Of a DNA stretch of 64,000 bases, positions 17,465 to 38,241 are shown in pieces. The stretch covers positions 35,842 to 99,841 of the forward strand of contig CABYEA010000005.1 of the NCBI GenBank assembly GCA_902517895.1, given 5' to 3'. The notes beneath the pieces are model-generated. The model was not told the DNA's origin. It searched no databases and was given only the letters and a program-made list of their open reading frames with translations. The first letter of the stretch is position 1. The number at the start of each line of letters is the position of its first letter. The position numbers and the translations under genes are program-made. The stretch comes from an uncultured Bacteroidota bacterium (GTDB taxonomy: Bacteria > Bacteroidota > Bacteroidia > Flavobacteriales > Flavobacteriaceae).

Positions 17465-17594
17465 AAATCAATTTTTTATATCATTAATAATTCAACAATG
17501 GCTGCAAATATATATATTTTTATTTCAATATTTAATTGCTTTATAATTTAATTTATAACTTCTAAAGATTAAATTTACTTAGACCAATTTTTAT

Positions 17595-18656
17595 ATGAAA
17601 ATTAGTAAGGAAATTTTAAAATGGTATGACAGTAACAAAAGAGATCTTCCGTGGAGAATAACCAAGAACCCTTACAAAATATGGATCTCAGAAATAATTC
17701 TTCAGCAAACGAGAATGGAACAGGGCATTTACTACTACAACAGATTTATTTCAAAGTTTCCAAATTTAGAATCCTTAGCAACCGCAGAAGAAAAAGATGT
17801 ACTTATTATATGGCAGGGTCTAGGTTATTATTCAAGGGCCAGAAATTTATATTATACAGCAAAACATATATTTCATGAATTAAATTCAAAGTTTCCGGAA
17901 TCATATGAAGAGCTGATTAAACTTAAAGGAATTGGAGACTATACCGCTAGCGCAATTGTATCGATATGTTTTGAAAAAAAATATCCTGTTTTAGATGGTA
18001 ATGTTTTTAGGATAATATCAAGGATTTTTGAAATAAAAAACCCTATTGATTTAAATAATTCAAGGAAAGTATTCAAAAAAAAAGCATCTGAATTAATGCC
18101 AAATACTAGATATGGTGACTATAATCAAGGATTAATGGATTTTGGATCTATGATATGTAAGCCAAAAAAACCATTATGTTCTAGTTGTTTGGTTTCTAAT
18201 AAATGTAGTGCTTTCAAAAATGAGCTAGTAACATTTTTGCCCGTAAAGACCACTAAAAATAAAATCAAGATATTATATTTTGACTATTTGGTGGTAAATA
18301 ATGCTAATCATATGTTAATCGAAAAAATTACTGATGGTATTTGGAAAAATTTATATCAATTTCCTGTAAAAATGTCTAGTTCTAAAAAAAATAGATCAGA
18401 AGTAGTTAAGTTTTTTTTGAAGAAATATAATCTGGATTCATTAAGTTTAAGAATAATAAATAGCAAACCAATTGAACATAAGTTGTCGCATATTTTGATT
18501 AAGTCAACTTTTTGGTTTACCAAAGAAAAATTGCAAATTAAAAACGGATTATTCACAACTATTCTGGAAGACTATCCAATGTCTAAATTAATGCACAAGT
18601 TTAGTGAAAAATATCATGGTAAATATATCTTTTCTGAAGTTAAAATGGTAAATTAG
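17595..18656 (+). CDS. mutY: A/G-specific adenine glycosylase
   Basis: LPWRITKNPYKIWISEIILQQTRM; LKGIGDYTASAI; CKPKKPLCSSCLVSNKC FeS loop. Confidence 0.95.
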   Translation: MKISKEILKWYDSNKRDLPWRITKNPYKIWISEIILQQTRMEQGIYYYNRFISKFPNLESLATAEEKDVLIIWQGLGYYSRARNLYYTAKHIFHELNSKFPESYEELIKLKGIGDYTASAIVSICFEKKYPVLDGNVFRIISRIFEIKNPIDLNNSRKVFKKKASELMPNTRYGDYNQGLMDFGSMICKPKKPLCSSCLVSNKCSAFKNELVTFLPVKTTKNKIKILYFDYLVVNNANHMLIEKITDGIWKNLYQFPVKMSSSKKNRSEVVKFFLKKYNLDSLSLRIINSKPIEHKLSHILIKSTFWFTKEKLQIKNGLFTTILEDYPMSKLMHKFSEKYHGKYIFSEVKMVN

Positions 18657-18665
18657 AAAAAAATT

Positions 18666-19106
18666 ATGTCAGGAACTCTAAATAAAGTCATGTTAATAGG
18701 TCACCTTGGTGATGAGGTAAAAGTTCATCGCTTTGAAGATGGCGGCTGTGTCGGAAGATTTCCGCTTGCAACAAACGAAACATATATGAATAAGCAAACT
18801 AATGAAAGAGTTTCAAATACCGAATGGCACAATATTGTTCTAAGAAACAAAGCAGCAGAGATTTGTGAGAAATATCTTTCTAAAGGGGATAAAGTTTATA
18901 TTGAAGGAAGAATAAAAACAAGAAAATGGCAAGATGATAAAGGAAATGATAGATATTCAACTGAAATTAATTGTTCAGAGTTCACGTTTTTATCAAATAA
19001 AAACGACATGCAAAACCAAGTTGATAACCCTAAATCTGTCTCTGAAACAAAACATGAAGAAAATGTTTCAACCCATGAAAATGATGCTGATGACTTACCA
19101 TTTTAG
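18666..19106 (+). CDS. ssb: single-stranded DNA-binding protein
   Basis: MSGTLNKVMLIGHLGDEVKV...EWHNIVLRNKAAEICEKYLSKGDKVYIEGRIKTRKWQDDKG; acidic tail ending DADDLPF. Confidence 0.95.
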   Translation: MSGTLNKVMLIGHLGDEVKVHRFEDGGCVGRFPLATNETYMNKQTNERVSNTEWHNIVLRNKAAEICEKYLSKGDKVYIEGRIKTRKWQDDKGNDRYSTEINCSEFTFLSNKNDMQNQVDNPKSVSETKHEENVSTHENDADDLPF

Positions 19107-19150
19107 AACTTTGAAAGTTTGATTTAATCAGTTAAACACTTCTTTCAAAA

Positions 19151-19723
19151 ATGAGTAAAATACTTAGTTTTTTTCTTATATTTTTTATTTTTCTCATCTC
19201 ATGTAACGATTCTAATCTACCAAAACAAAGTGCATTTTTAAGAATTGAATTTCCAGAGCCTAATTATCTGTTTCATAATGAGTTAAATTTACCAACTGAC
19301 TTTTACTATAATTCAAACGCAGCCATGATTGGTTTAGCGAATGATAGTCAATTATCCATTGATTACAGTAACATGAATTTGTCAATAGATTTGTCATTTA
19401 ATAATTTAAATAATCAGCAACGGCTAGAAAATAATTTACGTGATTTTTTACTCATATTAGATACACATTCTAAGAAGTCAAATGGTGTTGTTATGAGGGA
19501 ATATGAAGATAAAAATAAAAGAAAATTTGGAAAAATATTTGAAATGAAAGGGGACGTTGCGTCTCCGATTCAATTTTATATAACGGATAGTCTTTCAAAT
19601 TTTATGAAAGGATCTTTGAATTTGAAATTTAAATCTAAATATGACTCCATTTTCCCTTCAATTCAATATGTTAAAAATGATATTATAGTTCTATTTGAAT
19701 CTCTAAATTGGAGATCTAAATGA
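19151..19723 (+). CDS. gldD: gliding motility lipoprotein GldD
   Basis: Lipobox FLISC; QSAFLRIEFPEPNY; TDSLSNFMKGSLNLKFKSKYDSIFPSIQYVKNDIIVLFESLNWR; located after mutY-ssb. Confidence 0.88.
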   Translation: MSKILSFFLIFFIFLISCNDSNLPKQSAFLRIEFPEPNYLFHNELNLPTDFYYNSNAAMIGLANDSQLSIDYSNMNLSIDLSFNNLNNQQRLENNLRDFLLILDTHSKKSNGVVMREYEDKNKRKFGKIFEMKGDVASPIQFYITDSLSNFMKGSLNLKFKSKYDSIFPSIQYVKNDIIVLFESLNWRSK

Positions 19724-36236: not shown

Positions 36237-36617
36237 ATGGAAGTACAAGGTTTAATTAAAGTTATTGGAGAAATTCAGGAAATTAGTGCAACTTTTAAGA
36301 AAAGGGAATTAGTTTTAACAACCGATGAGCAATATCCTCAAACATTGTCAATAGAATTTGTCCAGGATAAAACAGATCTTTTAAACAGTTTTGACATTGG
36401 TCAAAATGTTAAAGTTAATATTAACTTAAGGGGAAGGGAGTGGGAGAATCCACAAACAAAAGAGATAAAATATTTTAATTCCATTCAGGGTTGGAGAATT
36501 GAATTAAATGAAAATAAATCAGATATAAATGAAGATTTACCTCCACTTGATAATTTAAGTCCATTTGAACCTGCATCCGAAACAAATGATGAGGACTTAG
36601 ACGATCTTCCGTTCTAA
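36237..36617 (+). CDS. DUF3127 domain-containing protein (SSB-like OB-fold candidate)
   Basis: MEVQGLIKVIGEIQEISATFKKRELVLTTDEQYPQTLSIEFVQDK...INLRGREWENP...YFNSIQGWRIE; C-terminus EDLDDLPF. Confidence 0.9.
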   Translation: MEVQGLIKVIGEIQEISATFKKRELVLTTDEQYPQTLSIEFVQDKTDLLNSFDIGQNVKVNINLRGREWENPQTKEIKYFNSIQGWRIELNENKSDINEDLPPLDNLSPFEPASETNDEDLDDLPF

Positions 36618-36621
36618 AACT

Positions 36622-38241
36622 ATGTTGTCAATTGATGAATTAAATAAGCATAACGAAAGAGAAATTTTTCTGTCAATATTAAAGGAAAAGTTATCCAAGA
36701 AACGCTATGAAAAAATTATTCAAAAAAGCGATTACAATAGAAAAATCATCGAATTACAAATTGATTTAGTCAACCTTCAAAATTGGATCAGTAAAAACAA
36801 TAAAAGAGTATGCATAATTTTTGAAGGCAGAGACGCTGCTGGAAAAGGTGGTGCAATCAAAAGGTTTGTAGAACACTTAAACCCAAGAAATTCACGAGTT
36901 GTTGCTTTAGCTGAACCAACACAAGTTGAAAAAGGCCAATGGTATTTTCAAAGATACTTAAAACAAATTCCAAATCCAGGTGAAATTGTATTCTATGATA
37001 GAAGCTGGTATAATAGGGCTATCGTTGAGCCCGTAATGGGCTTTTGCGAAAAAATTGATTACGAGTTATTTATAAATCAGGTCAATGATTTTGAAAAAAT
37101 GTTGATTGATGATGGTGTAATACTAATCAAGCTGTGGTTTTCCATAACTAAAGATGAACAAAAATTAAGATTTGTAAATCGGTTATCTAATCCTCTGAAA
37201 ACTTGGAAATTCAGCGAAGTTGATATGGAAGGTCAGAAGAGATGGGATGTATATACCCAGTATAAAGAAAAAATGTTTTTGAAAACAAATTCAGAACATG
37301 CTCCTTGGAAAATTATTGACAGTAATAATAAATTAGACGCAAGGATAAATTCAATAAGGTATGTGCTTTCTAAATTTAAAAACTTTAAAAAAACTTTACA
37401 TTCAACAGAAAGGCCAAAAAATATTAAAAAAGATAAACAGGTTAATTTTTCAAAAAAAGATTTAAAATTTTTAAATAAAAATAAAGGACTTATTGATTTA
37501 CTTTCAAGAGATAATGCATCTCTTTCTAAGACTCTTAGGTATGTAAAATTTGAAAGGGATCTAAAAAAGCTTCAAACAGAAATGATCAAGCTCCAAAATT
37601 GGGTTTCAGAAAAAAATAAAAAAATTATCATTTTATTTGAAGGAAGAGATTCAGCGGGTAAAGGTGGAGCCATCAGAAGGACGATACAAAACTTAAATCC
37701 AAGGAAACTTAAAGTAGTAGCACTTCCAAAACCTTCAATGACAGAAGAAGAGCAGTGGTACTTCCAAAGGTATGTTGAGCACTTACCAAAAAATGGTGAG
37801 ATTGTTTTTTTTGACAGATCATGGTATAATAGGGCAGTTGTTGAGCCTGTTAATGATTTCTGTTCAAAAGAACAATATGAAAATTTTATTAGACACGTAA
37901 ATGATTTTGAAAAAATGATAATAGATGATAATATTATTTTACTGAAATTTTATTTTTCGATTTCAAAAGAAACCCAAAAAAAGAGATTTAAAGAAATAAA
38001 AAATAGTTCGTTAAAGAAATGGAAATTTACAGAGGTTGATAGTAAAGCTCAATCTTTGTGGGATGAATACACCAAATTCAAAGACAAAATGTTCAAAAAA
38101 ACTAATACTAAACTAGCTCCATGGCATATTATACTTGCAGATAGAAAAATAGACGCTCGTATAAGTGCAATTAATTTGATTTTGAACAATATTCCCTATG
38201 ACAAATCAACCGATATTCACTCCAAAGAAATTAAATTTTAA
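36622..38241 (+). CDS. polyphosphate kinase 2 family protein with two fused PPK2 domains
   Basis: Two copies each of GRD(A/S)AGKGGAI(K/R)R, QWYFQRY, GEIVF(Y/F)DRSWYNRA(I/V)VEPV. Confidence 0.93.
   Translation: MLSIDELNKHNEREIFLSILKEKLSKKRYEKIIQKSDYNRKIIELQIDLVNLQNWISKNNKRVCIIFEGRDAAGKGGAIKRFVEHLNPRNSRVVALAEPTQVEKGQWYFQRYLKQIPNPGEIVFYDRSWYNRAIVEPVMGFCEKIDYELFINQVNDFEKMLIDDGVILIKLWFSITKDEQKLRFVNRLSNPLKTWKFSEVDMEGQKRWDVYTQYKEKMFLKTNSEHAPWKIIDSNNKLDARINSIRYVLSKFKNFKKTLHSTERPKNIKKDKQVNFSKKDLKFLNKNKGLIDLLSRDNASLSKTLRYVKFERDLKKLQTEMIKLQNWVSEKNKKIIILFEGRDSAGKGGAIRRTIQNLNPRKLKVVALPKPSMTEEEQWYFQRYVEHLPKNGEIVFFDRSWYNRAVVEPVNDFCSKEQYENFIRHVNDFEKMIIDDNIILLKFYFSISKETQKKRFKEIKNSSLKKWKFTEVDSKAQSLWDEYTKFKDKMFKKTNTKLAPWHIILADRKIDARISAINLILNNIPYDKSTDIHSKEIKF

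Follow-up and report, generated by a model that had tools for sequence, protein, structure and literature searches.

A compact SSB-like DUF3127 protein with a conserved SSB-type C-terminal tip, predicted to act beside the canonical SSB in Bacteroidota

The window, i.e. the whole stretch of 64,000 nucleotides analysed here from an uncultured member of the Flavobacteriaceae, carries on its forward strand (36237..36617) a gene encoding a 126-residue protein of the DUF3127 family, identified by its open reading frame, translation and Pfam and PHROG matches, whose ATG start (MEVQG) agrees with that of its homologues. Residues 2-89 match PF11325 (DUF3127) at 1.6e-28, with 99.2 bits against a curated cut-off of 27 bits, and the full protein (residues 1-126) matches PHROG 4932, a "single strand DNA binding protein" family, at 5.7e-40 over positions 1-117 of 117, tip included. 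The gene encodes an OB-fold domain (residues 1-90; 36237..36506, + strand), followed by an unconserved low-complexity linker (residues 91-117; 36507..36587, +; pLDDT ~60) and by an acidic tip of the SSB-Ct type, DEDLDDLPF (residues 118-126; 36588..36614, +), the protein thus terminating in NDEDLDDLPF. Four bases downstream starts a 539-residue ORF on the same strand (36622-38241), made of two similar halves (EGRDAAGKGGAIKR and EGRDSAGKGGAIRR), each of which resembles, by eye, a polyphosphate kinase 2 domain; in other Flavobacteriales, aat and not this polyphosphate-kinase-like ORF lies downstream of DUF3127. The genes around cellular DUF3127 differ by lineage (they include aat, alaS, a histidine kinase and a flavin-reductase-like gene) and revealed no link with replication.

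The canonical SSB of the window, used here as the comparison protein, is encoded at 18666..19106 (+ strand, 146 residues, PF00436 at 1.9e-30) between a mutY-type gene (17583-18653) and a gldD-type gene (19136-19720), both named by eye, and ends with the SSB-Ct tip ENDADDLPF (19077..19103, +). A preliminary description of this DNA, made from the letters alone, had pointed out that the two proteins end alike with different codons and had aligned their bodies by eye. Translation confirmed DDLPF as the last five residues of both, the tip codons do differ (GACTTACCATTTTAG in SSB vs GATCTTCCGTTCTAA in DUF3127), and the body alignment (VKVNINLRGREW against a 12-residue stretch) was reproduced by hhalign and BLASTP.

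The OB fold suspected from this alignment was recovered by structure prediction. The AlphaFold2 model, built from a 110-member family alignment (A1), displays a strand-strand-strand-helix-strand-strand topology within 36237..36506 (+; strands 2-10, 21-29 and 36-42, helix 43-51, strands 57-70 and 77-90), with a pLDDT of about 96 over residues 1-90 (range 95-97). Compared with the PDB by Foldseek, it gave 146 matches at E<=0.001, the best 50 of which were all SSBs, with 5yuo at 4.3e-6 and the Salinibacter SSB 5odn at a TMt of 0.72 among the named matches. At the sequence level, the A1 profile retrieved 19 PDB matches, all of them SSBs (best, Deinococcus SSB 1se8, 4.1e-8); a direct search of the PDB with the single window sequence returned no match, SSBs being found only with the profile. 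The relationship does not depend on the tails, as the OB parts alone aligned at an hhalign E-value of 1.9e-6 and 19 of the 26 SSBs scored above all 2,000 shuffled decoys, so that the body of DUF3127 is homologous to SSB in its own right. In reverse, DUF3127 genes were the best remaining, and the only other low-E, matches to the SSB profile in several genomes (down to 7e-5), and the family member nearest to the SSB cut-off (L142) was matched both by PF11325 (2e-25) and by PF00436 (2.6e-4; 21.4 bits vs a cut-off of 26). The window protein itself had no match at E<=1 to PF00436 or NCBIfam, TIGR00621 included, and lies below the curated SSB family cut-off; since it fails the PF00436 cut-off, we do not count DUF3127 as a member of that family. 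Judged by its sequence, cellular DUF3127 thus appears SSB-like but outside PF00436.

Compared with bacterial SSBs of the PF00436 family, such as those of Escherichia coli and Flavobacterium psychrophilum (FpsSSB), DUF3127 shares the OB topology, a strand-4/strand-5 hairpin with R-x-W, a disordered linker and an acidic tip ending in [LIV]PF, FpsSSB ending in DLPF. It differs by a shorter domain (~90 vs ~110 residues) with shorter loops and a score below the PF00436 cut-off, by conserved motifs of its own (QYPQ, QDK, GREW, YFN and AW[RK][IV]E), and by being a separate gene that is present beside SSB. Trp88 of E. coli SSB stacks bases (PMC3991886), and it aligns with Trp69 of the window protein (codon 36441..36443, +), a site that is aromatic in 104/110 family members; the other aromatics of the E. 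coli protein (W40, W54, F60) have no clear equivalents, L23 being short. E. coli SSB bears its Trp40 on this L23 loop, which is reduced in DUF3127, and Trp is not retained at the Trp54 position; the predicted ssDNA binding of DUF3127 could therefore be weaker or different. With a domain shorter than that of SSB, mainly in L23, the details of binding should differ.

The tip is conserved throughout the family. DUF3127 homologues were gathered from phylum-wide genomes and from viral contigs, and the removal of near-duplicates left 75 cellular and 62 viral proteins, 73 and 51 of which, respectively, end in PF. Among the cellular proteins, 45/75 end in DLPF and 13/75 in DVPF; position -1 is F and position -2 is P in 73 each (97%), position -3 is hydrophobic in 93%, and positions -4 and -5 are acidic in 91% and 84%. 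Conservation fades by position -9, with no conserved columns and nothing comparable at -10 to -30, within the linker, and only eight columns of alignment A1 are conserved at >=90%, P125 and F126 among them. As a background, an end of the [DE]hPF type (h, hydrophobic) was borne by 12 of the 1,370 other ORFs in the DUF3127 loci, three being copies or fragments of DUF3127 and nine being phage primases, primase-helicases or DnaB (seven of these nine were scanned with Pfam and PHROGs, the other two being near-identical to scanned ones). Across the window's own assembly (1.26 Mb, 68% complete), [DE]-hydrophobic-P-F C-termini were restricted to SSB, DUF3127 and DnaB. Because 73/75 homologues end in PF vs <1% of the other proteins at the same loci, the shared tip is not due to chance. 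An origin by chance or by codon copying was considered and ruled out by the family-wide conservation together with these background counts (<1%).

DUF3127 was present in 171/298 genomes of the phylum. In the window's class, all sampled genomes but one (G294) have it, almost always as a single copy; a PF00436 SSB was found in 296/298 phylum genomes, so that DUF3127 is normally an addition to SSB. Its absence from much of the phylum (171/298 positive) indicates that it does not answer a universal need. Beyond the phylum, the range was judged from 14 control genomes, among which only Bacteroides passed the DUF3127 cut-off; a contig search with one DUF3127 protein matched mostly Flavobacterium. 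Second copies were also encountered, ending in AQDQPF (L172, G045:C12) and in FDDVPF (L173, G232:C90).

Phages encode DUF3127 within replication and recombination modules. In Nonlabens phage P12024L its immediate neighbours are a YqaJ exonuclease, a primase and an annealing protein of the Erf-like kind; in Cellulophaga phage phi18:3 its module also encodes a helicase loader, RecT and a DnaA-like protein; in Flavobacterium phage Fpv5 it accompanies a replication initiation protein and RusA. PHROG 4932 matches 110/110 members of alignment A1, and its phage proteins belong to the same family as cellular DUF3127, their SSB name resting on annotation. The description of DUF3127 as "uncharacterised" therefore stands for the cellular protein, still of unknown function and annotated "DUF3127 domain-containing protein", and not for the phage members, to which PHROGs (PHROG 4932) and RefSeq already give the name single strand DNA binding protein. 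Two phage DUF3127 proteins are without linker or tip (L046:2123-2404 and L058:5001-5282), and the tip is found instead on a neighbouring primase-type protein (L046:4955-7303 and L058:7013-9196); within the DNA examined at the other tipless phage DUF3127 loci, no such swap was seen.

A different distribution of tips was seen in f2, a large neighbouring family that belongs to the window's own order (Flavobacteriales) and is probably Weeksellaceae, judging from its place and genera. All 93 of the f2 genomes that are >=90% complete have DUF3127, and all 29 f2 DUF3127 genes read carry DDLPF-type tips. By contrast, many f2 genomes have just one SSB match, and 29 of the 30 such SSBs read were tipless, the exception (G324) ending in TPF, a count that leaves aside G304 (83% complete) and G372 (76% complete). 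These tipless SSBs, typically of 111-117 residues, terminate directly after the OB fold. By eye, the tip-bearing f2 SSBs are flanked, like the SSB of the window, by a mutY-like and a gldD-like gene, and the tipless ones lie elsewhere. A homology-independent scan of f2 genomes for C-termini of the [DE][DE]hPF type returned DUF3127 as the sole such protein in G351, G377 and G348, three of the single-SSB genomes, and DUF3127 and DnaB in G375; DUF3127 is thus the only SSB-fold protein found with a docking tip in these four genomes. In addition, genome searches found no canonical SSB in six f2 genomes (G299, G311, G312, G314, G328 and G379), where DUF3127 would provisionally be the only SSB. This statement is provisional because a divergent SSB of G314 escaped the genome search and was found by its tip alone. 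That protein (L528:1305-1835, G314:C9), with a DDDLPF tip and a PF00436 match at 3.1e-8, escaped two homology searches; its ORF opens with an apparent tRNA end, and it probably lies on an integrated element. In G312, the ~69% of the genome scanned at full sensitivity, a portion without mutY, the usual ssb neighbour, yielded no canonical SSB, with DUF3127 at E 0.049 among chance-level matches.

Some f2 genomes also harbour a divergent second DUF3127, such as L472:1501-1911 (G367:C20), which ends in DDDDLPF, with extra matches in G359, G370 and G388; these copies are probably of phage or element origin. An SSB-Ct-like end, RRSDEIPF, was further observed in G379 on a bifunctional-nuclease-domain protein with a UVR motif (L525:419-1033, G379:C28). 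The reverse case occurs in another family, f12, where in two genomes DUF3127 (L159 and L162) is without a tip and SSB has it.

We consider, with a probability of about 85%, that the DUF3127 protein of the window is a second, compact protein of the SSB superfamily, predicted to bind ssDNA and to act as a tip-bearing hub beside SSB, and to be the main or only tip recruiter in f2. Through its 90-residue OB fold it would most likely bind ssDNA, with Trp69 and other conserved aromatics stacking the bases, and the disordered linker would present the SSB-Ct tip DDLPF, on which partners in replication and repair would dock. The analogy is with E. coli SSB and its partners, RecO, PriA, RecQ and others. 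In E. coli, the tip alone accounts for the binding of RecO, PriA, PriC and chi (PMC7145534). In most Bacteroidota, DUF3127 would thereby constitute an ssDNA-bound recruiting hub parallel to the canonical SSB, and in f2, in which usually no SSB but a tipless one was found, the main or only SSB-type protein able to recruit through the tip; ssDNA binding, oligomeric state, docking partners and essentiality are the properties that we infer. The idea of a second SSB-like protein, already advanced in the preliminary description, is supported by the OB fold, by the tail-free homology and by the conserved tip. DUF3127 may, as also advanced there, compete for the SSB interactome, and the data fit equally well a sharing or a taking over of it. 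Like the tipless paralogues of the SsbB type, DUF3127 supplements the main SSB with a further protein of the SSB family; unlike them, it keeps its tip, and in f2 the tipless protein is the SSB of canonical fold.

Three other readings of DUF3127 were weighed against the evidence. It might be an SSB-derived adaptor or regulator of PriB-like origin, in which OB fold and tip were kept mainly for protein-protein contacts (titrating SSB partners, joining SSB tetramers) and not for coating ssDNA. The L23 loop, shorter than that of SSB, the canonical SSB kept alongside in most genomes (PF00436 in 296/298) and the single copy of DUF3127 would all suit such a role, which we nevertheless regard as unlikely: the aromatics on the OB face are conserved, the Trp88 equivalent included, phages encode DUF3127 where an SSB is expected, and f2 retains it where the tip-bearing SSB is gone. 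PriB is, like DUF3127, an OB protein of SSB ancestry, but it represents the opposite arrangement, having lost the C-terminal tail altogether (PMC8509808), whereas the window DUF3127 has both tail and tip.

Binding of RNA, in the manner of a cold-shock-like or small-RNA chaperone with an autoinhibitory or solubility-enhancing acidic tail, seems improbable to us, even though OB folds bind RNA too, the acidic tip of E. coli SSB can transiently occupy its own DNA-binding domain (PMC7145534) and 9/110 family members have weak IF3_C matches (best E 0.0025). Autoinhibition needs no invariant terminal P-F behind an unconserved linker, the profile matches and the best 50 fold matches listed are DNA-binding SSBs, and phage DUF3127 occurs in replication and recombination contexts. 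Given how common acidic tails are and how short the motif is, a functionless tail might have converged on the same ending; with 73/75 cellular homologues ending in PF against a background of <1%, and with P125 and F126 among the only eight columns conserved at >=90%, such a coincidence is hardly credible. The reading of DUF3127 as an ssDNA-binding hub with a docking tip is the one we retain.

All bacteria are taken to possess SSB with its tail, and the pocket in which the tail docks has been put forward as a drug-target idea. If DUF3127 is indeed a near-universal second tip-bearing SSB in its class, one that persists where the usual SSB is tipless, the genome maintenance of a major bacterial group would be wired differently from the textbook scheme, and a function would be assigned to a domain of unknown function. 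A partial literature search found no paper on cellular DUF3127 or PF11325, and no account of how its tip is conserved, of its near-universal presence in the class or of a sole-tip role in f2. In that search the domain appeared in one paper only, where both SSB and DUF3127 domain matches were noted for a Pantoea phage SSB (PMC8004638). Strains having DUF3127 as their sole tip-bearing SSB-fold protein would offer a clean test system.

A bolder view, to which we give even odds, would have DUF3127 become, in f2, the principal SSB of replication and the hub that recruits partners, the mutY-linked tip-bearing SSB having been lost, a tipless paralogue or none being left, and DUF3127 and DnaB carrying the tip; at the scale of the Bacteroidota, one docking tip would be distributed over three replisome proteins (SSB, DUF3127 and DnaB). 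The replicative helicase DnaB of the window's genome (G000:C20:14530-16041, - strand; locus L260:1501-3015) ends in NDESDLPF, and 46/59 of the best DnaB matches across the phylum (relatives L292-L350) end in PF, usually with acidic residues just before. By sequence, the DnaB tip across Bacteroidota appears to resemble SSB-Ct; a partial literature search found no paper on such a DnaB tip, and the shared tip poses the question of which partner the helicase recruits. Phage T7 provides a parallel, its gp2.5 having an acidic C-terminal tail similar to that of gp4, much as SSB, DUF3127 and DnaB share their tip, with the difference that gp2.5 belongs to an unrelated family of SSB proteins. The acidic C-terminal tail of the T7 gp4 helicase binds polymerase (PMC12593628). 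Phage primase-helicases adjoining DUF3127 frequently bear such a tip; ends of the [DE]hPF type were observed on phage primase-helicases or DnaB encoded near phage DUF3127 genes at L002:6595-8421, L005:6643-8478, L017:2792-4600, L027:7477-9000, L048:6449-8305 and L065:7900-9744.
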